From assembly GCF_000003815.2 (NCBI RefSeq), contig NC_049983.1, positions 10,669,482 through 10,733,481 on the forward strand: DNA of 64,000 bases. Direction: 5' to 3'. The notes beneath the pieces were generated by a model. That model was not told where the DNA came from. It was given only the letters and a program-made list of their open reading frames with translations, and did not search any database. The position numbers and the translations under genes were made by a program. This DNA is from Branchiostoma floridae (taxonomy: Eukaryota > Chordata > Leptocardii > Amphioxiformes > Branchiostomatidae). Positions 16,600 to 42,963 of this stretch are shown piece after piece (within the stretch, counting starts at the first letter, position 1; each line of letters starts with the position of its first letter).

Positions 16600-16734
16600 T
16601 AAATGTATACAAGCAAGTACGCCGTCCCAGAGACGCCAAGAATAGCCGGGTTGACTGTTGCAGGCTTTTCTTTCTTACGGTCGCTATGGCTAGGTACATT
16701 AAGTGATTCCTGAATTCATTGATTGTCTAACCGA

Positions 16735-17125
16735 ACCTGTCCTTGGTGCTAAACACCATCCACACAGATGAACACACTTGTCCCTGACGCTGACCAACAT
16801 ACGCCCATAAGCGAGCATACTTGCCCTTGGTGCTGAAAACCATCCACACACTCAGATAAACAAACTTGTCCCTGGCGCTGACCACCATACACCCATAACC
16901 GAACATTCCCGTCCTTGGTGCTGAACACCATCCACACACTCAGATAAACAAACTTGTCCCTGGCGCTGACCACCATACACCCACAAGCGAGCATACCTCT
17001 CCTTGGTGCTGAACACCATCCACACAGATAAACATAGTTGTTACTGGCGCTGACCACCATACACCCATAAGCGAGCATACCCGTCCTTGGTGCTGAACAC
17101 CCACACAAGAAAGCAGACCTGCCCC
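16735..17125. repeat. 88-bp minisatellite, about 4.5 copies
   Basis: Successive units start at about 16778, 16866, 16954 and 17038, giving periods of 88, 88 and 84 bp. Each contains CTTGGTGCTGAACACCATCC and GCGCTGACCACCATACACCC. Since 88 is not a multiple of three, the long Cys-rich open frames on the minus strand are by-products of the repeat and not a gene. Confidence 0.9.
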
Positions 17126-18549: not shown

Positions 18550-21500
18550 CTATTCTTCAATTTCGTTACTACGCGAGAGCCTGCCCTCGCTGCGGTTATG
18601 TTTACGTCTGCGCCTCCTGTCCTGGCGGTTCTTCCTGCGGCGCGAGCTCGAGCGGCGTGGGACACGCAGCATCAGCAGATCACTCCGCTGGGCGTCGTCA
18701 TAGGGTGCCGATACCTGCACGTACAGTCAAGACTGTTAGAGTGCCAGGTTTGAGAAAAAAACTGCTCAGCTGGATGGACATGCAATAGTGCTATTCTTTG
18801 AGAAGCTTCAAAATGAAATTACGGTTATGAACATTTCATCTGTTTTTGGAGTGTCTGTGTGCATGTGGCGAAACGGCTAGTGCGTTGGAATCAGAATCGG
18901 TAGGTCCTGAGTTCGGTACTCACCATGCCCATGCCCATGCCCCCCATGACGGTGGAGTGACGCCCATCGAGCCTCACGGCCAATCTGTCTAAAGGTGCCT
19001 AAACCACCTACGCATTTGCCCACTTACCACTAAGACCCTTGATTTTCTTTTTAAATCTATTTTTGGAAGACAGTGTTCTTGGATTTTTCCCAATATCTAG
19101 GAATGAGGTGATTGTACCGCCTAAAAGTTTTAAACGATATATCCATGTAGAATCCATCTATCATGTAGATCAATTCGGACATAACAGAAAAACTAGTACG
19201 AAAACTTTGTATTCATACAAAAGTATAACACCATACCTGAAAGAACTGTATCCCTCCCGGCATATCCTTCAGCACGGCCGTCACGTTGGTCCAGTTCTCT
19301 GCCTCCGGCTGTTACCAAAAAAATGAACCCAACAGTAAGAATGTGTACTCTCAAATGTTGAATCAAATACTCATTTGTGTAGCACGAACAAGAAGGGATT
19401 TCGTGTATTTTATTCTACAGACGAAGCTATAAAATATGTCAATGATATTTGTTATCAGACTGCAGAACACTTCTCCACAAGTTCCGAAGAGAACTCCCAT
19501 TCCGTCTACTCATCCCGAATAGCACAAACATAAGGAGAGAGATACTACGATGAGGAATTAGAGGGGCAGGGTAAGGCTTGGAATAATTAGGGAATGAGGG
19601 GAGGTTCACTAAAGCTGCTGTTCTGTGACAGGAGATGAAATTTACCCGAGGAACTGTCTGGCGCTCCAGACTTGACGGGTCCTTCCCGTGGTACAGGTAA
19701 AACCCGCTGTAGTCGTACTTCTGGTGAGGCTCCGGCCGGGGGAACGTCAGGCGTACGCGCGTCTCTTGCTTCTTGCGGCCGCCTTTGCTCTTCTTACCGC
19801 GTGGCCTGCTGGCTCGGCCCCTAGAGCGTCCTCCAGAGTGACCCTTGGAGTGGCCACCGCCGGAACGGTCACGACCCGCTCTCACGTTCACAGACTTGAC
19901 TTTGACATTTATATCCTGTTTCCTCGGCACCCAGTCTAGAGATAGAACAAACAAAAAAACGGTAGGGGTAAAAGTTACATTCTTGTTGCAGTGATTTTGT
20001 TACTTTCACAAGTTTCCCCCTTTCAAACCCCCTTACTAACAGTAAGATGATGCTTAGTGACATTACTATTAGACTTTTTTTCTCCAACTGTAAAAGCGAA
20101 AATTTTCGATATTTTTTTGGCCTTCGTGGTTGTTTGTGTTGAAGTGTACAGATACTTGATTCGAGCAATGAGATTGAAATTGCTTGACGTTCTTCATGAA
20201 TTCATTAATTCTATGTAGCATATCGAAACTAACCTGTTACTTCGATTATCATTTCCTTCACAGGAAATGCGTCTGGAAAAGGGGAGGATACCTGCAAGAC
20301 AAAACCAAGAAATTATGTCATGTGTCATCATCGTTGAAAAAGGAATATCGATTAGATACAAACGCAGGAATCAAGTGCAAGAAACATTCAAAGACATATG
20401 TACATGGTTACTATGATGGTTAAGAATCACATGTATGCGCCTACCTTCACAGCATATATGTCTGGCTTTAGGTTCGCGAACACAACGGAGACATTTTTCT
20501 CCAAGATGACCTATAAGATGTTCACAAAATAATGTTCATTGACATTTTCGTACATTTAAAATAAGAGAGATTTGAGAAATAGCGATATCATCAGCAGATA
20601 ACAAGATCGTTTTGCTACAAACTCTCTTAACGTTATATATCTCGATCTATTAAACAAATTATATCATTCCAAACAAATACGCATGTAACATTTGTCGACG
20701 ATGAAAGGCAGTAAGCCCAGACCTTTTATGATGAGAAACAACCATTTGTAAGTTTGTTGCTTACATTCCGTGTCCATGTGCACTCAGGATAGGACTTCCT
20801 GGTGAGAATGACGGTGCAGGCAGACAGGTTGTACTCCGGTGGTGGGCCTTCAAACTCAACCGTCACGTTACGACAGGATTGTTGGACATTAATGTCACCA
20901 GGTATCCAGTCTGGGGAAAAATGAAAGGTTGTACTATGAAGTTCATCATTTGTGATATTGTTTGGCCAGAAGACGTTGTACATTTTCCCGAGACAGTTAG
21001 TTGTGGTGGAATGCATGAATCTTCCTCATGATAGTGCAATGTGCAATGGAAGAAGTTTAATACTGTTAACATCACGTATGTAACGGTACATATCTTACCT
21101 GTGACAGTAAACTGCAACGGGTAACTCCTGAATGGATCTCTAGCATCCACGCTGTACTGTAGGAATAAAACCAGGGATACATAAATATCACATTTCCTCA
21201 ACAACATAAACTCAAGTTTTCCGGTTAGCTAAAGAAATCACATCTCACTTTCCACAAACTCACATCTTACTTTATTAGTAAGTGGGCAAGTGGTTAGAAG
21301 TAGAATTGATAGATCAATATCCAAAAATGTCCATTTTACAGCGGTTTCTTCAATACATATCTGCATCTGGTCACAACTAGTTTGAAATATTGACAAAGTA
21401 TGCCTCCCAGATCACATGACAAAAATTCCGTCTCATCTACGTAAATCTCACCTGTAAGGTGTACTGTCCAGGTGCGATGTTATTGAAGGTGTGTTGGAAG

Positions 21501-24500
21501 TACTTCTTATTGCTGTCTTTAAGGGACTAGGAAAAAGGGAGTAGAGCAAATGTTTCAAGATTGCCTCGGGAATACACTTGTTGTATTGCATACAAAAGTA
21601 GTACTTCATGGAGTGTTGGCCAAATAAAGCACGTCTAGCTCACAATTTTATCGTCAAGACTTAAATACGTTTTTTTAAACTCTTAATACAATCAGTATTT
21701 GCAAAATCATGCCCGTTGGCTAATTGCATGAACATTCTCAAGAGAAAAGTAAATGGGTACTTAACACTAATGTAATATTTAATCAACTGTTATGTGCATC
21801 TAATATGTCTAATATTGGTTTAGGCAGTGGTTAATGAACTATCTCACTGCAAAATTGATGGGTTTTGTGATTTAAGTAAAAACGTAGTCTTTTGGTGATA
21901 TCCAGGATTACAAAAGCTCGATGACATTGACGTGACTGTTTGGAATAATCTGTTTTAGCAATTAAGTGTCAATGGTATCTATTTCATATGAAGTGTGGTT
22001 GGTAATCTTACCAGGTTTTTCCGCGTCATGCTGATGATTTTCGGGTATGGCCTGCTCCCACTCGGTTGTCCCAGGTACAGGTTGTACGTGCGGATGTTGA
22101 ACTGTCGGGCAGTCCTGGCCCTGACAGTGACGGTCCTGCCGACGGACCGTACTGTTGGCTGGGGCGGGTTCCATCGGGACGGACTGGGCCTCGTCTTACA
22201 CCCCGGGATGTTCTCACAAGCTGGAACATTGCAAGGAAGTTGCCAACTTCACAGAGCAGCCAAAGATATGTCAACGATAGTCGACATCAACACTGTATTT
22301 CAATAATGAAAAGGAATGTACATGTTTTCTGGTTCTAGCGGAACACGGAATGGACTTTCAGGTCACAAGTACGAGCTCTGCATACAAAACGCTTGTGTAT
22401 GAACAGTGAGAACAACTTCGAAGATAAAAAGAAGGCTTCTGAAATTTGTTTAAGCATGGATATACATATACATGTTGTTTGTCTGAGAACAAGGGAAAGT
22501 TTGAGTCCTACATAATTTTATCTGCTGAATTATCTCTTTGTCACATGTAATGGCAACCAACTGCAGTGCACAGTGTACCAGCCAATCTTGCCTTGAAGAA
22601 GAGGACAGACGGCCATCGAAACGTCGGCTTTTGAAAACCATGTGACTTACGTCTTTGTCACATCAGTTAATAATGACACCTAACTGCAGTACAAAGTGAA
22701 CCAGCCATTTATGCCCTGAAGAAGATAACAATGTTTGTGAATAAAGAACTTTGATGTGCTGACTTACATCTTGTCCTGTACCTCTGGATGAGCACACTGT
22801 CCTCATCCCCATCATCAGGCCTGCGTGCCGGGAGGGACCGGACCGTGATGCCGTACCTGGTATCCGGGCGGAGACCCCGTACCACGTGATTGAACCTCTT
22901 CTGTGGGACAAGTCCATACGTCAACTGTAAGGCTTATATCAGTACCACATACAGGCAGCACAAATTACAAAGCTGCATCAAGAGATCATTTTCTAAGTTG
23001 AACTTGAAAACCAAAGGAACAACAAACTGTAGGCTGAAAATCACAGGTATATCTGAAATGTAGTGTTGCTATTCTCTAATATTAGGACGTTACCAGTACC
23101 AGTGTCAATGATTCTATGTTAACCTTAGTGCGGGTGCTATCCTGGTCCATAATTTCCCTTCTTTCCAACATTTGGTATATGGGGGAAGGGCAATACGAGA
23201 GCTCCAGTAAAATACCTAGGATGGCAACAGGCTTACTTTTACAATCCATGACCAAGTTTATTGATTTGATTTATGGTCAAATTTGATTACAACGCATGAG
23301 GCACATGACAGCAATGTGATACCCAAACACGAGTCCGGATGGGTGGATCATATTTGCAGAAGGCGCCGGTGTGCTGACTCACGGTAGAACAGCTACTTAC
23401 ATGTACTCATTAAGACAACAACAAATGTTTGTGTTTCCTACGTGCACAGTTAAGCGCAATACGAATTAGAGGAAGTTCGAAGCAGAACTTAAGGAACTCA
23501 GTAAAAGCCAATACACACAATGATACGCCCTAAGGAGATTCCTGTTTTCTGTTTTTCTTTGTTGAATCTATTCACGGACTTGTTGCTATGTGTTTTGCTC
23601 CTGTTATGGATCTTTTATGTCAAAGGCTACAGTGGTTATAAGCCTCTTTGGTTGATGGGTGTTTTTGTTTGTTCAACTAACGACAACGTTTTACTACAGC
23701 AGGTGAATCATTGTGCCTGTCACAGATAAGCTGTTATTGTGCTTCAGGTAGAATTGACAAACATAACATTGCAAACATTCTTGACCCTTTGATATTTAGT
23801 CTTTCTTGTCACACAAATCGTAATGTGTGATTCTCTGTTGATAAAGATCGGGCGTCAAAGCAACGCATGGACCCCATTACATTGTACAGACCACTACATG
23901 CAAATGTTTATCACTGCACAACACGTCAGAACAAGACAGTTTTACACGACAGGAGTCTAATCTGTTGGTTTCGCCTATACTTCTACCGCTTAAAACTGAG
24001 TTTATTAACGGGTGCCTAAGATTTTTTTTAGCGGATGAAAGCGTCTTCTGCCCCGTCAAAACTCCAGTCAATCCAAGGTAGACTGGATTTTCAGGTTAAT
24101 TATGAATAGTCGTTATATAAATGTATTGTTTAGACATATATATGATTATATTTGACGAACAATTTTTGTGGGTTCATCATTTGTCCGATATATCTGTCCA
24201 TTCATTTGTATGTAGCCGGATCACACAGAAACAAAGGTTATGTCAAAGCAGGTGTAAAATTTATGATTATACATACCAAAAGGTATGCCACAAGTAATTT
24301 GAAAATTAAAAGAAAAACCCCTCACCTGATTATCTTCATGTGCCAAAGTAACATTAAAGCCCAGGATGATCTGATGACAGATGGATGAAGATGCCGGACT
24401 CATCTCGGCCACGAGTACTGTGAACCCTTTCAGACATCTGATGGCTAAAGAGGACAGTGGCACAAGATAACAAAAAACCATGTCACTGGATAAATTCTAT

Positions 24501-27351
24501 GAAGAACCAAACGTTTATCATAGCAGCCAATATATCTTTTATCAGATCGTTTACGAAAAGACAGTGGGTGCTATCTGAAACTTCTTACTATCAAGAGAAA
24601 TTTTGCAAATGCTTGAATAATTTTGTATTGCGTAGTGTCTAATTGACGTATCGAGAATGACAAAAAGCTATCATTTGATGTACATCCAACTACAATGATC
24701 TTGTTATAAGCTTTATTGATTCCACTATTCAGCGATATTATTTTCAAAACTGTTGATCAGTACGTACAGATCAATGGCTGAATTGTCTACAAAATATGCA
24801 AGACAGGCTTTTAATTACCTGATTAGTCATTAAACCAAAGGGACTATCATCTATATTTCTCTTAGACTCACTTATAAAACTGTCCCATCACAGATTGCAA
24901 ATTCCGGTACGTACCGTCTCCACTGGGTTGCCAGCTGATGTTGACTGCATCCTGTCTGTTACTGTTACTGTCTACCGGCGTTACATTCAGATTACGCGGT
25001 CCGGGCACAGACTCGTACACGGGGAGCATGTCAAATGGCCATGCCGTGCATTCTGGAAAATTCCATTAACATGGTGTATCAAGCCAAACACGGCAAAACA
25101 TGTTTGTTGTGTGTTGGTTCGAATAAAGTTGCTAAACGGGGAACATGCGGCTCCAGCGTCTTTTCTGAAGATGTGGCGTAAGTGTGAACGGTTGGGTTGA
25201 GGTTGTCCTTCTCCTCATACTCTACGTAAAACTAATATGAAAAGGACAACAGGCAAATAGACGTACCACCAGTTTTATTTCAAAATTGTAATATTTCTAA
25301 CAAAGAAGCCTTGGATTTCATCATTGCCTTTGCCAAGAAGGTTCTGTTTTCGGTTGAGCCATGGTGAAGTGCCTGTGGTGTGTGTGTACTGTATGCATGT
25401 TGACAGCATAACACGACATGCTATGGATGGATCTGCATGCTATTTTATTGTACAAAAGCGAAGTTTAAAGCTTGAATGTTTTCCCACCTCCTGATGATGG
25501 ATATCTCAGACAGACCTCCGTACAGTTCCCAGACGTCCCCAGACCACATATTCTATCTGAAGCAGGCTGAAGAACATCAACAGAGGTTAGTTCTTTAAAA
25601 TACATGGCCATCACAAGGGGTTTCAATAGAGGTCTCAACCTTACTCAGAAACAAGGGACACAGTTCGAATTTCGGGGTGCGAATTTCGGGGTATGAAGTG
25701 TATGGGGCTTTTATGAATACTCACTAAAGCTGAAATCATGTTGTGGTCATCACTTTGCAGGTGGCGCCAGCCATTTTGAAATCAATAGGTCAAAGGCATG
25801 GAAAATGCGATTATAATATAGCCGCTAAGTCTGTGTGAGTGGGTTCTTATGCCCCATGTGGTATGAAATCTGCGCATTCAAGAACATCGTCGACACTATT
25901 GACGAGGAATCAGTTCGTATTTCTAAGTGATTTAAATCAGGGCAAAGAGAGCCTTAAAGGTGACCCGCACACCTCTAGCAGCAGCTCAATTGCTCATGGT
26001 TTTCTTTCTCTCTCGCCTAACCTTACCGACTTCTATAACGGCGTGGCTTGTAAAGTAATGATCACAGACGCTTGGATTCTGGTGGACATTCAGCAAATGC
26101 TTCATACTTAACAACTTGCGATCCTTATGTCTTCGTAAGGCCGAGGACTTGTTTAACGTCCCTCGTAGTATAATAAATGTACGTTCAAAGTAAGAGTAAA
26201 ACTGGCGAAGGTTATGTGATTTTAAAAGCTTATCATGTTGCATGTTAATTTCAAAGACTGGCACAAATATTTGTAGTTCTTGGTCATATTAACAGACAGG
26301 TGGTTTACACCTGTTTTGCCTCCCTCAAAGTAAATCCGAGCATTAATATGACTGACGACTGAGCAAGGCTGCATTCTTGGGGGACCAAAAAGGCATTTAC
26401 CAACACAGATGAACTTCTATACAAAGAAGACATTGTGCAGTAAATCAGCAGCATGAAACCAGCTACACATGTACTTTCAAATCCGCTGTATGAAACTAGT
26501 CATACTTTCTTATCCACCGTGTGAAACCAGTGATACTTTCAAATCCACAGCCATTATCTTGAAAGGCTTTAGGAGTGGAGTTTGAACACAATCCGTTAAT
26601 CATGGAAGCCGTTGTTGGGAAAAATAGTGATCTTTCATGAGTGACTGACATTAGACTAGTGCTCCACAATATTGACCACAATGTCTTTATATGATTTTTT
26701 TGGTGACTGTTTTGCTATGGGTAACATGGTACCTTCTGCAAGTAGCAGCTGGTATATGCAGCTGCAGCAAGACGCAGTAGCGGCTGCGTGCATAGGTCCA
26801 ATCTTCATACGTGCGTTTTAGTTCAGAGACACGGAAATATCCTTATAGATACGGCTTAGCATCCGTTGAAAATCCTAATTTGGGATTTCGTTGGGATCCA
26901 AACATTCCGGATCGCTGAAAATCTAAATTTCGAGTATTCTACGGATTCAAGTTGGATCCGTCTGTATCGATCCGCCTGTATCTGGTTGAAATATCTCGTA
27001 TTTTGCTGTATTTTTTAAATTTTCGCGCAAAGGTTGTATTTCTAAATAGGCCTTTGTTCATCCATTTGAACTATGTCGTATCAAGCATTTCCGTTATCGT
27101 CACGAAGGACCAGTTCCAAGTATTTCAGACTTCCTTCTCAGAATGCTTCAGCTGCCAAGGGAAGTGAGACTATCAGTTCTCAAAGGAGTAGTTCAAAAAT
27201 AAAAAGGCCGGAGGAATTGATAGTTGCGTTTCCTCACGAAGTGCTACTGCAGCTGATATAAACTCACCTGGGAACAGAGCGCCTGACAGAATTCTTGCCG
27301 GGATTCCCGAGCCTGTGCCGGGGCGAGAAGGAGCAACAGCAGGGCCAACAT
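18550..27351 (-). CDS. Secreted IL-17-receptor-like ectodomain protein
   Basis: Fourteen exons (minus): 27268-27351, 25488-25566, 24915-25052, 24326-24444, 22768-22924, 22012-22220, 21452-21526, 21099-21156, 20765-20910, 20445-20510, 20234-20291, 19646-19935, 19237-19308 and 18550-18714. Every junction keeps frame, giving 571 residues. The signal peptide is MLALLLLLLAPAQA. A short Cys-rich linker follows, then four fibronectin-like modules matching the neighbouring full-length receptor exon for exon. Module 1 has CLKGF where the paralog has EFLRGF; modules 3 and 4 start DWIP and DWVP. Module 4 carries about 40 extra residues rich in Gly, Ser, Arg and Lys. The last exon has lost the donor used by the paralog and reads into a tail with runs such as RRRKNRQDRRRRRKHNR, then TAG. 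There is no membrane helix and no SEFIR domain, so the product should be secreted, perhaps bound to heparan sulfate, and may capture or present IL-17-like ligands. That function is inference. Confidence 0.85.
18864..19032 (+). mobile_element. tRNA-derived SINE remnant
   Basis: Box A-like TGGCGAAACGGCTAG (about 18867) and box B-like GAGTTCGGTACTC (about 18909) sit about 42 bp apart, as in the SINE at 32648. The cloverleaf is poor and the body is decayed. It lies in the last intron of the secreted receptor-like gene. Confidence 0.5.
22520..22763. repeat. Two tandem copies of a ~123-bp unit in intron 5
   Basis: CTTTGTCACAT, AACTGCAGT, ACCAGCCA and CTGAAGAAG-like blocks occur in the same order twice, about 123 bp apart (for example AACTGCAGTGCACAGTGTACC near 22559 and AACTGCAGTACAAAGTGAACC near 22682). 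The first copy continues into GAAACGTCGGCTTTTG, a phrase often found near the ends of old retroelements. The second copy ends just before the exon 5 donor at 22767. Confidence 0.5.
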
Positions 27352-27388
27352 GTTGGGTTGTACAAGAAAGGGGAATACCGTACTGATC

Positions 27389-27434
27389 TTTATAGTACAG
27401 CAGGTACTGTTGGGTACTACAGAGGGGAAGTCCC
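27389..27434 (-). promoter_or_regulatory. TATA box and kappa-B-like site
   Basis: On the minus strand, TATAAA (27389-27394) lies 38-43 bp upstream of the ATG at 27351, implying a very short 5' UTR. Thirty bp further upstream, GGGGAAGTCCC (27424-27434, read on the plus strand) fits the Rel/NF-kB pattern GGGRNNYYCC. The pairing suggests an inducible immune promoter. It is a motif match only. Confidence 0.45.
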
Positions 27435-28689
27435 TCACATTCTTCCTTAATTCTCGGTAGGTAACACATAAAAGAGGTAAATTGTTTGCTTTTTTGCTTA
27501 AGACCAGGCGTAAATGGCCACCGATCCCAAACGTTGGTTTCCTATTGGCTCTTATTTGGAAATTTAGAGCTCGCTGTATGGTGTACGCATGCGGTTCCTC
27601 CATCAGTGATTAGTGAGTCATTTTGAAAGAGAGGAAACAGAAGTGTAGGTAACAAGGCCCCGTCGACCCGATACTTGATTCGATGGCACATTCTGTCCGA
27701 AGGAAGAGTTCTGCAAATTTACGGATGAGTTGCAATGCCTTTCTCATACCTGGCAGCTCAGTTATCAATTTGTAGTGGAAATGTACTATACATCAGCGGG
27801 ACACGTGATGCAGCTTCTGTTATATCAAGGGTAAGTATAACCAAAGATCGTACATTTGAAGCGTGGCTTCTTTAGTGAATATTGTGCTATATTAGAAGCT
27901 CGGTCATGAATTGGGAGAAGACATTGTTTGCCAAGGGAGTGTAAAGCAGGACGTCAATCTTCCAAGAACTCATGTCAAATTGGCCATATCTTTCCCGATA
28001 GAGCGCACTAGATTATGATTGCTCAGTATTCGTGTCTCTTGATATATATACCATAACGCTTTCTTTCCTGACTGTTTTGAATTTGTTCCTTACAGACATC
28101 TTTGTAACTGTTTCCGCCATTTCTCTATGGAATTACATTTGGCCGCAGCAAACATTGGTGAGAAAGATGAGTTCTTCAATCTGATACTGATGGAATGTCT
28201 GCACATCATCATTTGATGGTTGGTATTGATTATCGTATCACGTGGAAAGAAATCGGTGAAGAATTATATGTATGTCTTCTTCTTCTTTACAGTCGAGCAA
28301 AGACATTATATTGTTGTTACTAATACATCATCTTACCGGGATTTCCCCACAGTCGTACCTGCAATTGACACAGGGAAGTTTTTCTAAGCTTAATGATAAC
28401 ACACGAAGAAGACAACCAGTTTATCACCAGAAAGGGCGTAAGATGTAACTTCTCCATTTTGTTGGTCAACGACCGTCAGATCGACCCTAGATCGTTGACC
28501 TGTAGCAAGTCTCAAACTAAGAGAGGACGCGTCGCTTCTACACATTTAAATCATGGTACATGTCCATACTAGCAAGCATCAATTTACAATCGGAGAGCTC
28601 TTTTATGAGGGGTCAGTTTATTAGATTTTTAGATTTGTTTCTCATGGTGTAACACACCAGCTTTAACATTATATTCGGATAGATTTGTT

Positions 28690-28935
28690 TCATCAACTCA
28701 AACTAGGAAGCACCCCTTTTCTTTGCGATAAGCGTAGCGGGATCCTTAACGTGCTCGATGTGGCTCTTCTCAAACACAGAACCTCCATTAACGTCCTATC
28801 CGAGAGATCTCCGTAGCCGAAATTACTCCCGAGTGAAGTGGAAGAATTCGCTCAAGTGCCTCTCCCAAGGGCACAACGTCGGTGACATATCAGAGGACTC
28901 GTACCCAGGACCTTTGGGTTTTGGGCAAAACAACC
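28690..28935 (-). mobile_element. SINE, minus strand
   Basis: Read on the minus strand it contains GGTCCTGGGTACGAGTCC (box B-like), then CCCTTGGGAGAGGCACTTGA, then AGGTTCTGTGTTTGAG and CGCTTATCG. These occur in the same order in the SINE at 53015-53310, so the two belong to one family. Confidence 0.75.
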
Positions 28936-29520
28936 TAACAGTTACGCCCAAAGCGACAACTCTAAATACCTGAGTGTCTGTCCGTAACATTTTTGACATT
29001 TAGTTGCTGGTAAATACCAACATGACGTAAAATTACAGTCATGGATAACTTCTCATTTTAGCCTTCTCAGTAGCCCTCAGAGGGAAACGAGAAGTACACA
29101 GATGGCGTCCGTACACAATGGGAAGGGAACTTCGTGGGTGTAGAGTGCTAACATTTTAACGCCCTTCCGGTCATATATAGTCGTTCATATATTGATATGC
29201 CATTCTCAGAAATATAAAAAAAGAACGATAGGCAAAAAACTGGGTAATGGCTTCTTTGCCTGGCCCTTTCTGCTGAATTTCCTTTCAGCAACTGGAGTGT
29301 AGCCGAAGTAGAAAGGAGTGGGACTTCTGGATCATATTTGGTTTGAAACATTGAAGTAGATTAAATCATTTAGTAATGCTAGGCAGCGATCAATCAGAAA
29401 CTATTGAACGACCAAAATTGGAATCTTTGACTTAAGAGTCATGGCCATCCGTGCCACCAGCACGCCCAGCCGGATGATGATGATGATAACTTAAAAATTG
29501 GTGTATAATTAATGAATCTC

Positions 29521-29552
29521 TTTTTTTTCTCTCTCTCTCTTATACACACGCA

Positions 29553-29600
<48 letters not shown>

Positions 29601-29606
29601 CACACA

Positions 29607-29651
<45 letters not shown>

Positions 29652-29655
29652 ACAA
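29521..29655. repeat. CT/CA microsatellite
   Basis: A poly-T and CT run leads into about 100 bp of nearly pure CA repeats. Interruptions by A and G are few. Confidence 0.95.
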
Positions 29656-31074
29656 ACAACGCAAAAACAAATCGTTCTCTATGTACGATGATCGTTGGTA
29701 GCTCAGAAGTCACACTAGTCTCTATTATGGAAAGTGTGTGTTGGTGTCACAAATGAATTATCCATCCGAAAGAATTTCTAAACTGTTCATGGACGTATTC
29801 ATATTGAGCTATAGAGTCCATTCCGAGACACCATGAGGGTTTTTAGACAATAATTGTAATAAGTTGTAATTATTTTGAATAAAAGAATATCTAAGCTCCA
29901 ACAATCATAATTTTTTCAAAAATATTAATATGGAATTTTGAATCTATTTGAATTCCTTTGAATACTTTGGAAACATTTTGAAAGAGATCTCACAAAAATC
30001 TCTTTGTTTACAATAATTTTCAAACATCTGCAGGATTCTTTCACTTTTAGAAATATTTACAAAAAATGGTAAACCTTGCCAAATGGTAGAATTAATTTAT
30101 TGCCCCATAAAAGTTAGCCCCTTTTGTCTGCCTGGTCTATTTTTAGATTTCACTGATGGGCACTGATGGGTCCTTTGTGGTAGGCCATTGACATGACACC
30201 CAACCATACTTTGCAAGGATGTGTGAATTGCTTTCTTCCCACCCCACTGACCCAATATTACAAAAAATGGTAGAAAATGGTAAATAATGGCAAAATGCTG
30301 TTACCATTGTTTACAAACTGTTATAAGTGTTCTGTTCCACATCGTGAATATTTCAAAGGTTTTACAGACCGGGGAAAATATTTAGAAAGTTCAAATAGCA
30401 TTAGAAATATTTCAAAAGTATAAAATCTCCTGGACATATAATTGAAAACAATTGAAAACATTTGTAAATGATGACAATTGCAACCCTCGTGGTGACTCGG
30501 AATCGACTCTAGAGACAGAACAATAACCGCATGTTATTTTTTCAATCTTTTATTGCACCCTTTAGTAAAGGCAGTGAGAGGCTTATCACTATTCATACAT
30601 GGGCTTGATTCCGTTTATATAACAATCCAAGCGTAATTCAATACGATAACACTGATATCGTTCTTGTACTGGCGGATTTCAAATTGATAACTACTCTTTG
30701 CTCTAAATCATCAACACCAAATGGTACAGAAAAACTCACATTTAAAATTGTAAAGTGTTCTTGAAACTACTCTGAGTATGTCAACACAGGATAAAATGAA
30801 TCACCAAATTGTAAAATAGCGAAGCGATTGTCATGATAGCTGCTCGAATAGTTTGTGCTTGTAATTTGACAAGAATCTTTAAAACATATCATCTTCATCC
30901 CATAGCTTTCGTTGAAAAATATTTTTTAAGCTTCGTCAAAGCGATTAATACTTTTGCGGTATATTGTACAATACACGGCATTGTTATTGCTTAGCAGATA
31001 TAAGCTATAATTAAGAACAATCTGCAAAGGCTAAATTTGCTAATGTATACTTTTTCAACACTGAAAACTAAATT

Positions 31075-31080
31075 TTTATT
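31075..31080 (-). terminator. Poly(A) signal AATAAA of the full-length receptor-like gene
   Basis: AATAAA on the minus strand lies 159 bp after the stop codon at 31239. A second candidate is at 30549-30554. Confidence 0.5.
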
Positions 31081-31238
31081 GATTCAAATTTTTTTTTGTT
31101 ATTTCAGGCTCAATGATTCATAGACTCATACATACATCTAACCAAAGCATCGACAATATCTACAGTACAGGCATCTACAAGCAGCACTCATATATACATT
31201 AGACTTATTCTGTTACTTAGTCTAGGATATAATTCCCT

Positions 31239-34200
31239 TCAAAACCTAGTTTCTCTGTAAGACTGCCCGCTGTCCTTCTCCATATACCTTAACTGTGAAT
31301 CTCTGTTTAACTGAGACAACTGGTCCATAATGTTAAAGTTACTGGAGGGAGGAGGTAACTTTGGTAATCCCCCGTTCAGAGGAGGAGACTCGGCCCGGGG
31401 TAAACCCGAAGGTGGCCCGGGCGGAGGACATTGTAAGTACGGTCGGGAGGGGGAAGACACCGTGGCGTGGGAAGGGGAAGTTTCTACCATTGGGCCTACT
31501 TGAAGGGATGGATACTGACCGGCTGTATGATGTCCCCCTTCTGTAAAATGTAATCTTCCGTTCGCTCTGTTAGCATCTGACGTGTCTGTCTCGTGACGCA
31601 CTGACTGTTCTTCACTTGGGAGAGGACGTCTCTGGGAATAGGACGCATGGCCTGCATACGGGAAGTGTCGGAATGGATACGGAGGGAAATTTGGGGAAAC
31701 TACTTCCACTTTATTCTGGGAAGAGTGATACCCAGTGTCGTGAGCCGAGAACGCAGGTACTTGGTCTGTATTATCAAACGAAAGGCTCTGTTCTTGGGGG
31801 ACCTGGTCTGGTGTTTTAAAACTCGTTTGGACACAACCTTCTATATGTTGAAAATGATCAGCTCGATGCCCAGCAATAGTTCTATAGTCGTCAACTTCAA
31901 AATCCCCCAGATTGCCCATCCCAATATGGGTAGAATTCATTTCTACTGCATGGTGTGCATGAGCATATGTGCGATTCGTCGGAACGTCAGCTATAGACCC
32001 ACCCTCTCCTATAACGGCTACCCCGGTTGAACCTTCAGTGCCATGCACTGGAAGGGAACTGACATTAGCTGAGCAGGCATCGGCATTGTACATACAGGCA
32101 GTTGGTGAAAGTTGGCCATATCTATCGTCAAGGTAATTGTTAAACTGGGATATTTCATCTAGATTGACTGAATCCAGAGACGCACTCTGAGTATCCCCTT
32201 CTATCGCATACTCCCCCTCCATTAAAGACTCTAAGCTTGAACCACGTGGTAGCTGGTCAGGGGTGTTTGGGACACTAAGGCCCATCCCATCACCACCCTC
32301 GGGACTACCCAGGACGGCAGCGTTACGTGAGAGGGCGGCCTGGAGGTTGCGTTTGCATGCCATCACGTCGTTTCCCTGCTCCCCGATTCTGATCGTCAGA
32401 GACTCGGGGTTGAGTTGATATCTGTAGAGGGGAGAGAAATAAATTCATCTTCTGTCCTTTCCGTGAACAAAACATTAGCAACATCAAGCATGGAATATGC
32501 GGAATGTAAATAGATGAAGAGAGCTATCAGGATGATGACTGAACAAAAAACCATCAAGTCAATAAAACACTCATAAATTGAAAATAACCAACTAATTGGT
32601 CTTGCAGTCAATCATCGAAATAGAAAGGATCTGTCTACACGTATTTGGTGTCGTGTTGGCGCAGTGGTTAGATTGTTTGGTCCCGAATCCAGAGGTCCTG
32701 GGTTCGAGTCATCTGACGTGCCACCGATACTGTGCCATTGGAAAATGCACTTTATACGACTTTTCTCACTCCACCCAGGTGCAAAAATGGGACCCTGTCT
32801 TTGGTTGTGCAGCTAAAAGGTGCTGGAAGGAGAGGGATGGGCACCGCATTACAGTACCGTACCCTAGACACAATGGATAGCAACCCACTGCCCCCTATGG
32901 CCCCAGAAGGCCATACCTTTATTTTAACCTATCCATCAAACACATCTTACCTCTCAAACTTGTGAAAATGACAGAACAGGTCCACGACGGCATCGTCAAA
33001 GTCTGGGTCTCGCGCCTTGATCTTGTAGTGCCGAGCAGTGCCCAGGACCTGCGGGACGGTGTGTTTACCGCTGTACTCGAAGCGGACAGTCAGGCACTTG
33101 TGGTGTTGGGTGGCGAGGTCGGTGGAGAGCTTCTCTCCCAGGATGCGGACACAGTGTGTGTATATGGGGTCCGGCTGGGCTTCTTCGCCGTCACCTGATG
33201 AAAAAAAAACAGAATTGTAAGGAAGACGATTTTCAATTTTCCTTAAAGCATATTTGGTGTAAAATCTGTCTTTTAGTGAAAAATGAGATAGAGGGGTACT
33301 ATCTCATTTTTCACTCGCGATCGTACAGTACTAGTAGACTGTTAATGACATACCTATGCAGACATGATTTAGTACAACTTATACAATTATGACGTTTTCC
33401 ACCTAAACGTCCTTCATAACTTAGTAAATGTGATAAATAATCAGGTCTAAAAATCTAGGCACCAGAAAATAGTTCTGGTATTCAGTGATGCCCAGTGATA
33501 CGATTTCTATGATATTCAAACAGATAGTGCTGTGTCCATGTTCTTCAAAAGATGTCATATATTCACGAATCATACGCGTTGTCAAGTTGAGAATAATCTT
33601 AAACACATGCACACTGAATGTGCGAAAAGGAACGAAAAGGAACGTTTTCTTACCAGTGTTGTTGGGTGGACAGACGACCACCGTATAGTCGGCAGCTTCT
33701 ATCTTGTCTATGTACCACTGTGCCGCTCCCACAAGGTCCACCTCCCTCTGACTGGTCAGCTCCGTGATGACGTCACAGTACAGCCCCGTTTGCAGGAGCT
33801 TCGCAAAGTGGTGGACGGCTCCATTTGGACCCCCGTGAGAGGGGGGATTCTTTGTGGAGATCACCAAGACTTTTTTGGCTTCTGTATGCATAGTAATATG
33901 AGGGTAAGTCCGACAACAGTAAAGAAAAAAGAAGAAGAAAGTGAACTAAGTAGGTGTTGGGACTTGAAGTTGAAGTTGAAATTGAAATATGTCATTTCAG
34001 CCGGACGTTTCCAAAGAAGAAAACAACAGCGACCAAGATAGCCAAACCTCACACCTTTAATTTCGGGTACTCCGCTGGGCTTTCGACCTGGAATAAGCCC
34101 TTTAATGATGCCAGTAAATGATGCAGACTTCTTGTCGACCATCCTCTTTACGTACATGATGACGAGAATCAGGATAAGGCAGAATCCACCGACGATACCA

Positions 34201-37200
34201 CCGATCATGGGTAGGGGCCAGGTCTGTGGGCTGACAACCTTTCCTTTAACATGGGAAAAAAGAGAACTCGGATTGTTAGACGTACTAAAAAAAGTCAAAA
34301 CTTTTCAAAATGTATGATAGAAAATAACATATAAGAAATCGACAACTGAACACATAAAGCAAATTTCCAGGGAATTGCGTGTACCAGAATCTAAATTAAC
34401 GTTTGGTGAATTTCTCACCTGGTATCTGGAAATGTTTCAGTTTACTCCGGGCTGCATCAGGATAAGGAGGTGACACCTGGGAATACAAATAGTCTCCAGA
34501 TGACTAAAGATGTAAAAGCCTGTGCAGTGTATGCATGTTGATGTGTCTTTAGGGGCGTTACAACAATGTCTTTTCTCATTTTACAAAAAAAAAACGATGT
34601 CTAATGCTACGGTCCTTTTTAGTAGAAAAAAAGAGTCGGGCTGATTTTTAAGTACTTTCGGTCATGACGTGACGTGGCAGCGTAGCACACCCTGTAGCTT
34701 CCGGGCTACGAGTACTTAGTATTTTGGGGCACCGCGGGGTCCTTGTGTTTTCTTCATAACCTCACAGATAAAACCCGACAGCAAATAGATGCGTTTCCGC
34801 AGTATCTTACAGTCCATCGGGACAAATTTGTTTCGTCAGAGCCCGAACGGGACTATATCCCCTACAGGCATGGGTGGAAATGGGGCCGTAGTACTAATTA
34901 CTAAGCATGATGTAATTTGATCAAATTTATCACTCATACCTGGAAAAATAGGTCGCTGCTCTGGACGACATCCAACTGCACTGTGACGTTCTTTCTGTCG
35001 TCATCATGAGGCTGGAAAATGAAAATATAAGAGCCTAGATGAATTTTCAAAGAGTTAAAGTAAAAAGTTGTAAACGTCCGTGGAATGGTGAGTTGGGACA
35101 AACATCATCCACAGGAACATTTGACAGACTGGATATGTGAAGAGTGAAAGCAAGTATGAGGTTTCAATCATTAATGCTCTTCTACGTTGCTATGCAGTTA
35201 CCTGACAAATTTCCATGTACTGCAGTTTGTCAGTCTGAGGTCCATAGTACACGTAAAAGCTGGGATAGTCGTGGTCTGGTGGGGGTTTGGGGAAGAAGAC
35301 GGTCAAACGTGTGGAGTTCGCGGTCGGTCTCATGGAGTCCTGGACCAGCTCTATGTCTTCCTGATTCGGCACCCAATCTAATGGGCAAAAGTACACGGTA
35401 GGTGATTTAATTCCTAACATGTACTGAGAATGATGTGGGTAAACATTTTTTGTCCGTCATTATACATAAAATACGTACATAGCATGTCTTTTAAATTCTA
35501 CTGTTTGTTGACGAATCAAATCTTGTTTTCCTGTGTCCCGGTATAAAAAGGAGGGTACTTTACCTGTAATGCTGAAGTCTTTTTCTTTAAAAGGAAAGGC
35601 GTCTTCGAACGGTGCAGACACCTGTAAAAATGATTATAATATTTACTTACAAAGCTAAAAGACAATGTGAAACAGCCTGAAACATCAGCGATGAAGTCAC
35701 AAAGAAGGTATACGTAGTCGTAGAATATAACACAAACCTTAACACGGTACGTGTCTGGAGGAAGGTTCCAAAGGTGAACAGTTACAACCGTTTGGTTAGG
35801 GTCCTGGAATGAGAGAAACATACAGTCATTCTTTTAATCTTGATCAAGTTCACAGTTTCTAGTGTCTATCCCTTTTACATTTGCTTTATGTGTATCTTCA
35901 TTCAATGGCGCATCTTCACAATACTTACAAACTCATTGGATTTGAAATCCAGTTCGTCGTCATAGCGGAAAAGCCTGACGTAGCACTTCGAGATGTTGTA
36001 CTTCAGCGGTGGGGCGTCGAAGCGGACTGTTACGTTACGTCCGTTCGTCTGGGTGGTGACGTTGTTTGGCTTCCAATCTGAAGTGAAAAAAAAAATGTCT
36101 TACTGATGATCGACATTACCGAATACAATTTTGACGCTACCAGTAAGAATGACAAGATGACATATATTTCATTGTGACATTTAAGTCTCCTTGCCTAGAG
36201 AATATGAGTAATCAGGAGTTTATTACAATTTAACTAGACGACAAGATAACGTATATAAAAACTCAAAAGATGTTTTCAAAATATAGATTAGATAGATTTG
36301 TAGTTGGTAACTGGGAGACACCCGTGCAATCCTAGCAAGGGCTGCAACAGTCTGTCTGGAGCGACGTAAAATGGGGGTCCCGTGTTTGAGGAGGTGCCCC
36401 GAGCACGACAAAAGGGAAACGGTGGTAAACCATACTTCTAAATATTACCCTTCAACTGAACTGAATATTACCCTTCCACGAACTATAGAAAAGTTGTAAC
36501 GAACCGTCGAATTAGTAAAGGAAACGTCTTATTGGTACCACGAGATGGTGATGGTTTGCCTTACCTTGCACTGTAACATTTACTGGATATGATCGCCAGG
36601 GATCGTGCACAAACTTTAGTTTCAACGAAATGGCATACTGTGGATGAAAGACGAGGAGAAGTTAGCGGCATCTAACGTTGGTATAAATACTGTCTTCATG
36701 AAATTGGTAAGTCTGTTTGTACGATGAACTTCCTGAAAGGACTGGATTTCTCTAATTTATCGAAAGGTATAACCCTACATGCATGACAGAAAGTGTTGAA
36801 ATTTGTAGCTATGGACGAACCTGTAGTGTGTAGTTTCCTGGTGACAGGTCTGAGATCGTGTAGTTGAAGTATTCTTGATTACTCTCTTCAGGTGTCTGAA
36901 TGAAGAAAAATCTATCATTACAATAGTACTGTCATGTTGCAGGTACTCCAATCATTTCAATGTCTTATAACGGCTTGCCCAAGACAATCCCTCTAGGCCT
37001 TCTCAAATTATCGTGTCGCAGACAGACAGACAGACAGGCAGACGGGCACACAGGCACACAGGCACACAGGCACACAGGCACACAGGCACACAGGCACACA
37101 CACATACACACACACAGAAAAGATCAGATTGGACATCAAATATCTCTTTGTTGAAAACAATAGGAAAATGAAAAGTCCATTTGCTCACCAAGTTTATGTA

Positions 37201-40200
37201 GATAGTGTCTTCTACGGCTGGAGACTTTTGGTTCCCTTGTATCTTGCCTAAGTATAGGGCGTACTGGTTTATGCAGTTTATTCGTCCTCTTTGCGTGGTC
37301 TTTGTCTTTGCTCTGATGAAGATCTGACGGCCCACTGTTGTAACATTGAGTTTCTCAGGGCGCCATCTGTTGGCGTCGCTACAACCTGTCGTCACAGGAG
37401 ATAAACCAACGAGTTAGACCTTGCGTTTTTCTTATTCCTGAACAATATGGATCTATATCCATGACCAAATAAAATCTTAGGTGAAATGGAACAACTGATT
37501 TTCAATCAATCAATGAAGCCGTGAAAGAATCAGTCGTGTCGTACCTTTGTCTGCCCTGCCACGGCGCCTTTTGGGGTCTGAGAACAAGTGGGAAAAGAAG
37601 TAATTTTTTGAAAACGGCACGTGAAAGAGAACAATGTGTACATGTAGTATGGCTGCACCGAATTTCATTGTAAAATCGAAATATATATCTAAACAGCTAA
37701 ACAAATCAACAACTTATCGTGAACATACTTTGGGCCTTATAGTGATACGTTTGTTGTAGATAGTTGCCATTGTCCCTATCTTGGCTTTTCGGCAGAGACT
37801 GCACAATGACATCGTAGTCCTCCTGATATAGACCAGACACTTCTTCTTGAAAGATCAACTGTTCAAGCAAAGATCAGGATGCATTAGTTGACTTAAGGCA
37901 CCAAAAAGTACTCAATGGTAGTATGGACTATTTGTAATCACAAAATAAAACAAAACTGGCTCCTGCAGTATTAAAGAAAGCCACTACCCTACAGCACTTA
38001 CTCCCTGTTCCAAGTGTTCATCACAGTCATAGGATGTCCAGAACACGAGATATCAAAATTGGAAGTTCTGCTGCAGTGCCGTGACAAGACGCTAGGCCCC
38101 CCTCAATGTAATTATTTTGAGGTCTTGTTAAGACCTACCGACAAAATATATATCGACAATTCTCGAGTAATGCTTTCCATCCACATACATGATAATACAT
38201 ACACATACAATAAAACGCTACCAAAAACATAAACGTCTTGGCGAACGTAACAAAGCGCATGTATGTACCTCACTGTCTGTAGGCTGTAACCGCACGCCTT
38301 CTGGGATGATTATTTGACTACACGGCCTGTGTTCCTGCATGGACCTCAAGTTCAGTTGGATCTGAAATCCTCTCAGGAACTCAATACCCGAGGCTGACAG
38401 AAGAAAACAGACAAAAGTATTAGCAGATTGTCATTCAATTTTGGGTTGTAATTGTCTATCTATATGGCTTGTCCTTGTACAAATGGTAAGTAATGAACAG
38501 TACTTGCAGTTGGTAACAATTCGTTCAGACCCTTTTCGTCGCTTTCTTTTCTTTATCTGTCGCTGCTATCATGTTCTCACCGGTAGCGTTTGTCTTCCAT
38601 GTGATCCTGACGGTGTCTTTGTTCCATCCTTTGACCTGCAGCTCTACGGGGGCAGGAGGCACGTCGTCCCCAAACGACGACTCCAGGCAGTCATCTTAGA
38701 GATTAAAAAAAAAGTAGATAAAGAGTTATGGAATGCGGTAAATCTTCAGCCTGATCCATAGACTACGCTCGTTTGTTCGTTGATAACCTTTTAGTTTGTT
38801 TGTTTGTTTGTTTGTTTGTTCGAACCTTTATTTATTCATGAAAGCTCAAATCGGCCTACAGGCCGCTTTTCATTGAGGTCATGAGGGAAGAGGCAAGGGT
38901 CAGACAAAGTATATAACAGAGATAAAGTTACATCGTTTTGAGTCCTTATAGGTCCTATACGTCTATATACACCATTTACATTTACATACATACAGAATAC
39001 ATGATAAAAACTGCTACATTATTCAAGTCCGTTCATTTGGCCGTTCCCGTGACTTTAAGAGTCTCTTAAAGGAAGCCAGGGTTGGGGCTGTGCGTATGTC
39101 CGGTGGTAGACTGTTCCAGATGGTGGGTCCACGGTAGGCGATGGCTCTTCTTCTAGTGCCTAGTGGCAAATAGGGTAGCAAGTTTCTTTGCTGTTTCTGT
39201 AGTAGGGTATAGTTTTACGGAGAGGTGTTGCTACCTATTTTCCCCTGACGTGCTCGAAACACACCATCGAAGACATGTCTTCCGAAAAACGGTTACAGCC
39301 CCAACCGAGATGCCCTCTCCAGGATTCTCCCAGCTACTAACTAATTTCAACCAGAGGCTCAACTGTGAGGCTGCTTCCAGTTGAAGTACACAGATCTATT
39401 ATAGTGTTATCTACGATGTACACTGAAACCGTCTACTTTTAAATCTAAAAAAAGGATATCAAGAAACAAGATATATGCGTAAGGAAGAAAATATCTACCT
39501 TTTTTGATAGCCGCACACCCATTTATGCAGTTTACTACACTCCCGCGATCACTGGAACTCTGAAAAACACGTGGGAAATATTTAGTAGACCTTTTTATAG
39601 CATGTAGTGAAAGGTATTGTTATTAACGGGTTCATATTTGAACGATCCATTTTAATTCTCTGAGGCTGTATACCTCTCGTGAATCTGAATAAGATTCAAC
39701 GCCAGCCTAAATAAACAAAACGTTAACATGGTCAGCCATCGAGTCTGAATTATGCCATGTAAAGAGCCACTAGTCGGCGATGCGTAAGTCGGACTTTGTC
39801 CATTTCGTACACGGTCGTTGCCATTTCATACGGTCGTTGCCATATCCCTGACCGGTCGATACGATTTGTACGAGCGTTTCATGATATTTTGGAAGAAGCA
39901 ATATTGAAATACAAATGTACGACAATATCGTGAAAATTGATTAAAAAAAAATGTCTGTAAAAGAATGTGACTACCTCGGGTTTGACATTTCTGAACTATG
40001 TTCCCTAACCAACTACGTTGTGATAAACTTTCAAAATGTATGGTAACCAGGCGCACTATACATGCGTAAAACGGCGATGATCGTTTAAGAGACGGAAATT
40101 AGCGAAGACGATCACTGAGCAACTACACAGTGACCAAAGTTGGATTTGTGTGACCCAGGACATTATATCAAAGTATGAACAAAACATAAGAAAAACGTTC

Positions 40201-42320
40201 GTTTTGTATCAAAGTTATTGAGAAACTCGTCAAAACTTGGGTCGTAGAGAGGTCGCCACCTTCAGTGGAAAGGGGTGTAACGCAACTTCCTTACCAGAAT
40301 ACTCATATACGTTACCCTCTTATACATAGCAACAGCCACCCTTACTAAAAAGGCGGGTGACCATTAATAGCCTATTTACTTTACGTGACATTATATCCCG
40401 ATTTCTTCCCCATTTTCTTTAGTTGTTATTGAGGATAGGCTGGGAGGTCAACCTTAAATCAACAGTCACAATGGTGAACACACAACATAGGATAAACTAC
40501 AAAATGATACCGATTTTGTTCAAAGTATTTCGCGTCCTGTGTATCAAAATTTTGTCCGCACGATCCATATACGAAACTGTGTCTATGTGTAGAGTTTTCT
40601 TATGAAAACGAAAGCTGACATAAGACGTGCAAACAGGTGACATAAGACGTGCCACTACATTGTACATCGATTTTTAAACACTTCCATTTACCATAATGAC
40701 TAGAAATAGTAACAAGGCCAGAAATCGATCGTTTTCTGAGACACGTTCGTCCATACGGCCTTTTAAAGCTGTATTCTCGGAAATGCTTAATATCTTTGTT
40801 GTTTACATCATTTACAGTGTAGAAACCTTGCATGACCTTGCATGAGAAAGCAGGGGAACGTGGTCAACATACAGGCAGTTGAAAACATGTTGACTTGTCT
40901 CCGTATAACACAAAAAGTGTACGTCCCAGTGTTTATGTACTTTAGACAGAACAAATAGAAATACAACAAGGAGACAAATATCTATACAGCCACCAACATT
41001 ATACAAACAAACAAGCATAAAGGGCACTGGTGCAGAGTTCTGCTATTTTCTGTTGAAAATTGTTCCTTGTTCTGCTTTCACGTGGGAAAAGGCAAACAAC
41101 AGCTTTCTTATATCTGAAACCGACTTACCTGACATGTGTGTTTGAAGACGGAAATGCCTTGTCATGATACGGGCAAGTAGTCTCTACAAGACTCCCGCCT
41201 AGCCGACTAGAAATAGGGGACTTTGGCCAAGCTAGGAATAAAAGCCTAGTAGGAGTTAAATTGGCATAGGAGCGAGCGGCGGTGAGGAAATAAGTCCTCT
41301 GGCCGGCCGACTCCGCTAGCGTACTATAGACTCTATTTGTCCAATTTCTACTATTAGACCACCGATCCGCGGAACCTGGTAGAGGCTACGGGCAATGGCA
41401 ATGTAACAATGGTAGCACGGAGGTCGCTTGTTAGTGGGAAAATGACCAATACAATCGCTAGTCTATGAGGATTAATTAAGGAAGCCTATCGTTCAAACAT
41501 AAATCTTGTCGAGTTTTGTCAACTATACATCGTATTCATGGTATAACTAATGGTGAGAATGAATGAATGAATATTGTACGAAAGTACGTCATTCGCCAGA
41601 GGGGTCACCTGACAAGCTTAAGGTAAGACGAGATGTCCGACAGTGAAACTGTATAATGACCTATTTTCTATCATTCATTCAGTCCTATGGACACTACGAA
41701 CATAGCCTCAGAATATCCTCAGCAACTTGGTCGAGTTATTGATATTGTCGCAGGCGAAACAAAGATCAATCTTGTCCCCCTTAAAAATGTTACCTTTAGT
41801 TATTTCCAGCTAGAACTACCTTACTTCTGATAGCATTAAGGCTAGCATGTTTTTTCAACGTTCTGTGGCATATTGCCATAGCCAGGATTAGGAACATGTT
41901 TTACATGAATTAGAAGCTAACTATCACCTGCAGAAATAACGTACCCTTGTTCTAAATACCTATATATGTACCCACCGCCAATTCTTACAACCGACAACCC
42001 CAAATATGATACCAAAAAGGAACGCAAACTCCGTCAGACCCAAAAGTAATTCCATGACAGAACTGAACATATCATCATACAAACCAGGCACTCCTATACA
42101 GTATCAACTTCCCTAGCTGTCACCTGTGCTTGGACAAAGCATGGGGAACCGTAAAACACGCGGAAAGTTTCCCCAAGAAGTGAAAGTTCCTAATACTGTC
42201 AAAAATTTCCCCATGTTCTCGCATTCTTACCTGACTGCACGTCTTGCAGGACGGCCTGGCAGAGTTCTCAAGTCCTTCCACTCTAGCTAGAAGGAGCAGA
42301 AGTAAGACGAGAGGAGCCAT
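31239..42320 (-). CDS. IL-17-receptor-like transmembrane protein with SEFIR domain
   Basis: Nineteen exons (minus): 42231-42320, 39499-39559, 38581-38694, 38269-38393, 37729-37858, 37545-37577, 37189-37385, 36821-36895, 36565-36637, 35929-36077, 35738-35803, 35564-35621, 35202-35377, 34940-35011, 34419-34476, 34055-34243, 33654-33881, 32951-33194 and 31239-32421. They sum to 3321 nt in one frame, giving 1106 residues. The order is: signal peptide (1-16), Cys-rich linker, four fibronectin-like modules (module 1 has the GIEFLRGF motif seen in IL17RD-type receptors), a transmembrane helix (MIGGIVGGFCLILILVIMYV, about 505-524), and SEFIR from about 557 (KKVLVIS strand, later YTVVVCPP and LTVRFEYS) to about 700. 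A Pro/Ser-rich tail of about 390 residues completes it. By family knowledge, SEFIR domains recruit Act1/CIKS-like adaptors. Vertebrate IL-17 receptors have about two ectodomain modules, so four is unusual. It is either an IL17RA or an IL17RD relative. Confidence 0.92.
32648..32935 (+). mobile_element. tRNA-derived SINE in the last intron of the receptor gene
   Basis: Box A TGGCGCAGTGG (32657-32667) and box B GGTTCGAGTC (32701-32710) are well preserved. The body has TTTTCTCACTCCACCCAGGTG, a variant of the CTCACTTCAC block in the other SINEs. Its 3' end stops about 15 bp from the exon 18 donor. Confidence 0.8.
33275..33315. repeat. Intronic 16-bp perfect hairpin
   Basis: The arms 33275-33290 (AGTGAAAAATGAGATA) and 33300-33315 are perfect complements with a 9-base loop. 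It lies in the intron that splits the SEFIR domain. Confidence 0.75.
37018..37116. repeat. Tandem repeat (GCACACAG)n with CAGA and CA runs
   Basis: CAGA repeats are followed by about nine GCACACAG units and then CA repeats, in the intron between exons 7 and 8 of the receptor gene. Confidence 0.9.
38794..39190 (-). mobile_element. 3' end of a CR1/L2-type LINE
   Basis: The minus strand encodes LPLGTRRRAIAYRGPTIWNS and then LPPDIRTAP followed by a SFKRLLK motif, stopping at 39023-39025. This is the usual C-terminus of CR1/L2-like reverse transcriptases. A roughly 200-bp 3' UTR ends in AATAAA and an (AAAC)n tail at 38794-38820. It is inserted in intron 2 of the receptor gene and is 5'-truncated. 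Confidence 0.85.
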
Positions 42321-42963
42321 GATTTCTACAGGGAGAGACTTTGAAGTCCGGGCGCGTGGCCTCCCCACGCCACGCACATGTGTGCTTTAAAGGCACGTAT
42401 GGGCGCTTCCAGGGGTTTCTTGAACACCAGAAACGGTAAAATTCTTCCTCTCAAGTTCTCAAGACAGAATCAAAATCAAAGAAAAAAATGTAAGTAGTCT
42501 CTATAATACGCGGCCTAAATCAATTAAAGATATTCATTTTTCTTTAGATTGGAATAGATTGATTGTTTTCAGATGAAATCTGTGAAAAATTGTAATCTCC
42601 TTGCACACCCTTAAGTTAGACGTAATGGAACAGTCCACTTGACAACCCTAGGTGTGCCTGAGGGACTTCCCCTTTCTCCTTTTGTGAAACAAAAGAAGAA
42701 AACAGAAGTGGCCGTATCTGTTCCTGTTTAAAGCACAATAGTCCTTCTGTGGCAACCTGTGACCTCTTTTAAATTCAATATGGCATTGGCTTAATTGCAA
42801 TTCTGAAGCAATAACTGACAATAAACAGATTAAAAAATAAACAAAGGATCGTAGGTAATTTATTTGCTTATCTCAAGTATGTTGGCCCTGTGACAAGTGT
42901 AACATGTAGGAGGTATTGATTGACTGCGGGGGTGGGTGATCGACAAGAAGTGACCTACAGTTA

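Follow-up and report, generated by a model that had tools for sequence, protein, structure and literature searches.

Does an invertebrate chordate carry a separate gene for a soluble IL-17-type receptor and, if so, how did that gene arise and what would its product do? The question is raised by a 64,000-nucleotide (nt) stretch of Branchiostoma floridae DNA (NC_049983.1, positions 10,669,482-10,733,481; termed C5:10669482-10733481), hereafter the window, in which an earlier note had placed a signalling IL-17-receptor-like gene (here gene A) beside a gene for a secreted version of its ectodomain (gene B). Our results suggest that gene B encodes a secreted, sugar- or matrix-held IL-17 decoy or reservoir, possibly inducible under feedback control, a reading to which we give an even chance of being correct.

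A membrane receptor gene and an ectodomain-only gene

We built spliced models of genes A and B exon by exon on the minus strand, and GT/AG borders were present at all 31 introns of the two genes. The features of the pair are as follows.

31239..42320 (-): gene A, predicted IL-17RD/ILCR1-type membrane receptor, 19 coding exons, 1106 amino acids (aa) (spliced model, Pfam)
39559-39499 (-): gene A exon 2, required for the open frame in the spliced model
37545..37577 (-): gene A 33-nt basic exon, NPKRRRGRADK, between modules 1 and 2, absent from B (spliced model)
34419..34476 (-): gene A exon 15, donor CAG/GTGAGA (11.7 bits), for which B has no equivalent at the corresponding site
34055..34243 (-): gene A exon 16, encoding the membrane helix, where hydropathy peaks (2.67, residue 506) (model, hydropathy)
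32951..33881 (-): gene A exons 17-18, encoding SEFIR at protein positions 577-693 (model, Pfam)
18550..27351 (-): gene B, ectodomain alone, 14 coding exons, 571 aa (spliced model, Pfam)
27268..27351 (-): gene B exon 1, ATG and a sequence resembling a signal peptide (model; signal peptide by eye)
19646..19935 (-): gene B exon 12, module 4 including its basic insert, where a 44-aa stretch has 16 lysines plus arginines (K+R) (model, six-frame scan)
18550..18714 (-): gene B exon 14, last part of module 4 followed, with no donor where A splices, by a 36-aa basic tail with 16 K+R and the stop codon
18417..18422 (-): putative polyadenylation signal (AATAAA) of gene B

Gene A runs from an ATG at 42320 to a stop at 31239 and encodes a signal peptide (judged by eye), four modules, a membrane helix and a SEFIR domain, with an ectodomain of ∼490 aa. 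In its spliced protein, Pfam scored SEFIR at 31.9 bits (cut-off 23) and Ig_ILCR1 at 30 bits (cut-off 27). By sequence, gene A has the features of the IL-17 receptor family: SEFIR, signal peptide, fibronectin/immunoglobulin-like modules and a single membrane helix. Gene B, with its ATG at 27351 and its stop at 18550, encodes four modules matching those of A, and both the membrane helix and SEFIR are absent (highest 19-residue hydropathy 1.18, compared with 2.67 for the helix of A). Its ectodomain is of the IL-17R type, with Ig_ILCR1 at 49.7 bits (cut-off 27) and fn3 at 28 bits (cut-off 25) in the spliced protein and a match to A at E = 3e-68.

The earlier note's description of the pair held up when the genes were rebuilt: both lie in tandem on the minus strand; the 571-aa length of the short product was recovered; models, Pfam and hydropathy placed the helix and SEFIR in one gene and the basic tail and stop in the other; and the exon-by-exon match claimed from the signal peptide to module 4 was borne out, each of the 13 introns of B having a counterpart in A with order and phase kept. 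The two proteins are identical at 182 of 469 aligned residues (39%) and differ at 61%. Five sequons and 6 cysteines occupy common columns; in all, A has 12 sequons and 10 cysteines, and B has 11 and 13. An intact frame over 14 exons and 13/13 conserved intron phases at 39% identity therefore argue that B has probably long been under constraint, a constraint read from A-B divergence alone.

The last exon of B is homologous to exon 15 of A and carries CCACGCCGC where A has its CAG/GTGAGA donor; past CCACGCCGC, B reads on into the basic tail, the stop and the AATAAA at 18422. In a 700-nt stretch that begins with exon 14, the eight best donor-like GT sites are all located past the stop codon, with scores no higher than 6.7 bits, compared with 11.7 for the donor of A, and no coding GT site of the exon is among them. 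The 31 real donors of A and B have a median of 9.0 bits (range 4.7-13.0), so that some of the post-stop sites (5.0-6.7 bits) are as good as the weakest real ones. With the membrane/SEFIR part of A as query, nothing similar was found elsewhere in the window at E ≤ 1, nor was there a match in six 10-kb flanking pieces (30 kb on each side). The only other match of three A/B queries in the window was to the A ectodomain (E 0.26, 6087-5944), with an internal stop.

Because B has no good coding donor, has its own stop and AATAAA, and has no A-like membrane/SEFIR sequence (E ≤ 1) in the window or the six flanking pieces, a splice from B into membrane/SEFIR exons is unlikely. Its product is predicted to be secreted, given its own start, signal-peptide-like sequence and stop, and the animal may thus obtain a soluble receptor from a gene of its own rather than by cleavage or splicing of the membrane receptor. 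The genomic anatomy of B fits that of an own-gene soluble cytokine receptor without a membrane form, and we regard it as a derived soluble relative rather than a signalling IL-17 receptor, lacking as it does both SEFIR and membrane helix. Of the proposal that B is a dedicated gene for a soluble ectodomain, the part that concerns the DNA (own ATG, signal-like start, no helix, no good coding donor, stop, AATAAA) is well supported; the interpretation as a whole is partly supported, a decoy or carrier role being its inferred part.

Intron 2 of gene A also contains, at 39023-39214 (-), a frame containing AYRGPTIWNSLPPDIR that resembles the C-terminus of a polymerase of a non-long-terminal-repeat (non-LTR) retrotransposon, its putative identity; a AACAAACAAAC run lies farther on.

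Relatives of the pair in the genome

Searches covered the 513-Mb, 431-contig genome with the best candidates scored, and match counts are therefore lower bounds. Among the matches listed, gene B had 15 (14 on itself and one on A) and the first 746 aa of gene A had 20 (18 on itself and two on B); A and B were each other's sole cross-match, and no further copy was found. The possibility that B is a copy of another receptor was set aside, A being its only cross-match among the best-scored candidates. From their Pfam profile scores, the ectodomains of A and B are assigned to the ILCR1/IL-17RD type, an assignment that does not fix them as IL-17RD proper: IL17R_D_N stayed below its cut-off of 25 bits in both (16.9 in A and 19.9 in B).

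A genome scan with Ig_ILCR1 gave at least nine matches at E ≤ 1, with one over the cut-off among six loci on C5: A (E 0.084), B (E 0.216) and loci at 13.906, 22.296, 22.311 and 22.426 Mb. The other three of the nine, on C11 and C3, fall within very long reading frames and were excluded as belonging to other proteins. At each of the four other C5 loci a SEFIR match lies ∼2-10 kb downstream on the same strand, each locus being counted as one gene without a gene model. SEFIR is thus present at five of the six C5 loci, with gene B the sole exception; that of gene A was seen in the spliced protein and was not listed by the genome SEFIR scan at E ≤ 0.001. When 18 loci were compared, three matches had E ≤ 0.05: the A cytoplasmic part with L020 (0.002), the A ectodomain with L011 (0.034) and B with L021 (0.037). 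IL-17 ligand matches in the genome number at least 13.

Further SEFIR matches are one on C4 (C4:6306207) and four on C19, sites for which the Ig_ILCR1 scan listed nothing. The C19 matches (C19:8165280-8176394, L002-L005) lie in open frames of 197-234 aa within ∼11 kb and possibly represent SEFIR adaptors or another receptor class. At C5:22295961-22311468, ∼15 kb separate two ILCR1-profile loci on opposite strands, and SEFIR matches lie downstream of both.

Elsewhere in the window, Pfam on seven neighbouring frames gave nothing over cut-off among the matches listed (25 of 29 for one coiled-coil frame). A frame at 285-662 (-) resembles the C-terminus of a non-LTR element, its putative identity, and has only a sub-threshold Pfam match to DarP. 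Open frames at 16727-17188 (-) consist of repeated units such as CGWCSAPRTGMLAYGCMVVSA and are minisatellite-like.

Basic segments and upstream motifs of gene B

The earlier note had pointed out the basic tail of B, which we recovered; a second basic segment, the missing donor and the upstream kB and TATA motifs are newly seen here. The 556 aa of B that start at residue 16 contain 89 K+R and 53 aspartates plus glutamates (D+E); for the 477 aa of the A ectodomain that start at residue 17, the counts are 57 K+R and 59 D+E. Much of the excess in B lies in the module 4 insert and the tail, with 16 K+R each. When all six frames of the window were scanned, at least 16 K+R occurred in 14 of 21,831 stop-free windows of 36 residues, all of them in exon 14, and in 26 of 15,128 stop-free windows of 44 residues, the insert accounting for 12 of these and exon 14 for the other 14; nowhere else in the window is a stop-free stretch as basic. 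The presence of two such segments in a single gene suggests selection for binding to an acidic surface, for example heparan sulfate. Heparin-type patterns (XBBXBX/XBBBXXBX-type, histidine counted as basic) matched B at GKKSKG, SRRRKNRQ and DRRRRRKH.

The following motifs lie upstream of the two starts.

27425..27434 (-): kB consensus GGGACTTCCC, 74 nt upstream of the B ATG
27389..27394 (-): TATAAA, 43 nt upstream of the B ATG, next base G
42662..42671 (+): kB consensus GGGACTTCCC, 342 nt upstream of the A ATG

A further kB match, GGGATTTCCC, lies ∼1 kb upstream of the B ATG. Three of the seven kB matches in the window thus fall within 2 kb upstream of the two starts, with 0.22 expected (Poisson P 0.0015, a partly post hoc count).

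A proposed secreted decoy and its alternatives

We propose a tandem duplication of an ancestral IL-17RD/ILCR1-type receptor gene, in which copy B lost the splice donor after the last ectodomain exon (we infer the direction of this change), so that the exon would come to read into the basic tail and stop. The membrane and SEFIR exons would be gone from this copy, and a second basic segment would have been gained in module 4. The product would then be secreted, keep its ligand-facing modules and be held on heparan-sulfate-type sugars, where it might capture IL-17 and thereby damp or shape signals through A and its relatives; a kB and TATA promoter would make B a feedback gene. The full proposal, an inducible, matrix-anchored IL-17 decoy or reservoir with its own gene in an invertebrate chordate, arising through tandem duplication and loss of one donor, is tentative, and we place it a little short of an even chance.

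Several observations weigh against this proposal. The constraint on B is read from divergence within one species, and at 39% identity B may no longer bind the ligand of A. In the genome scan, the Ig_ILCR1 matches of A and B were below cut-off. Sequence searches of solved structures gave no significant IL-17R match: the best rows were a Lar fibronectin module (E 0.022) and, with an A/B profile, Lar (0.085) and IL17RB (0.14, the best for an IL-17R). The SEFIR part of A had no significant match to an IL-17R structure, and none to a SEFIR structure at E ≤ 1; the best rows for the cytoplasmic part were unrelated proteins (E 0.37-0.62). Heparin-type motifs also occur in A (two matches, PKRRRGRA and ARHYKI), the basic segments of B may serve another purpose, and a furin-like RRRR motif in its tail could lead to removal of the tail end. 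With regard to the promoter, the first kB site was noticed before enrichment was counted; at least seven kB matches arose in 7 of 100 shuffles; the stricter GGGRNTTTCC has two matches in the window, neither near the two starts; and TATA-like words are frequent in the window (107 versus 59 expected), with the TATAAA of B outside the longer TATAWAW pattern scanned. Because of these results and the post hoc count, we consider the kB and TATA promoter suggestive only.

Would a secreted, sugar-bound B block IL-17 at all? As a carrier or presenting co-receptor it might instead concentrate IL-17 and aid signalling through A, and the available part of PMC11727785 describes one separate-gene soluble receptor, CLF-1, that acts in a signalling complex with a partner, whereas IL-18BP, osteoprotegerin and IL-22BP of the same list are antagonists. 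The sequence evidence for a carrier is identical to that for a decoy, with no feature to set the two apart, and the basic segments would keep either at cell surfaces; we consider the carrier role unlikely.

Vertebrate IL-17RD/Sef controls fibroblast growth factor (FGF) signalling, FGFs bind heparan, and the effect of Sef needs mainly its cytoplasmic part. A role for B in FGF-type growth-factor signalling rather than in IL-17 binding would agree with ILCR1 as its closest profile and with the sub-threshold IL17R_D_N scores, but the cytoplasmic part is what B lacks, and IL-17 ligand genes are present in the genome; such a role is distinctly improbable.

We find it very improbable that splicing to unrecognised exons, for instance past an assembly gap with exon 14 skipped, gives B a membrane or signalling form. 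A 100-N gap does lie at 15787-15886, 2.7 kb downstream of B, which also counts against the decoy proposal, and the post-stop GT sites overlap the weakest real donors in strength; on the other side stand the absence of coding GT sites from the best eight, the stop and AATAAA that come next, and the failure to find membrane/SEFIR similarity in the window or flanks. That B is a decaying or untranscribed copy is also very improbable, its 571 codons, 14 exons and GT/AG sites being intact despite a 61% residue difference from A, and a pseudogene is likewise unlikely.

Returning to the decoy proposal, Sohda in 2013 (cited in PMC12003107) reportedly found that soluble human IL-17RA, a soluble IL-17 receptor ectodomain as the product of B is predicted to be, is made through alternative splicing of the membrane receptor gene. 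IL-22 binding protein (IL-22BP, IL22RA2) is a class II cytokine receptor, not an IL-17R, and, unlike B, is not known to have large basic segments; osteoprotegerin (TNFRSF11B), unlike B a member of the TNF-receptor family, has a basic heparin-binding part. Both are separate-gene soluble receptors, as B is predicted to be, and the 34% homology of IL-22BP to the IL-22R ectodomain is near the B-A figure (PMC11727785, available part). By analogy, B would work like these two without belonging to either family. The separate-gene soluble receptors named in that part are IL-18BP, osteoprotegerin, IL-22BP and CLF-1, none given there as an IL-17 receptor, and no separate-gene soluble IL-17 receptor was reported in the titles and abstract beginnings listed from the open-access literature (for one search, 10 of 1,798 papers).

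IL-17RD/ILCR1 receptors resemble A and B through profiles (Ig_ILCR1 over cut-off in both, SEFIR in A) but, unlike B, have a membrane helix and SEFIR. Sea urchin SpIL17R1 and SpIL17R2 resemble A in having a membrane region, SEFIR and a long extracellular portion of 535 or 662 aa; unlike B, both have membrane and SEFIR parts, and the available text reports no separate soluble gene (PMC5457136). Between two amphioxus species, the 20 genes that evolve fastest include one named interleukin-17 receptor D (Ka/Ks 1.4422), according to the available part of PMC5787515, and this gene may be A, B or another.

If the proposal is true, the IL-17 receptor family would have in B a soluble antagonist encoded by a gene of its own, similar in layout by convergence to IL-22BP and, through the basic tail, to osteoprotegerin. 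For an invertebrate chordate to carry a dedicated soluble-receptor gene next to the membrane receptor would show that such control arose for IL-17 too, in a simple way, by loss of one donor.

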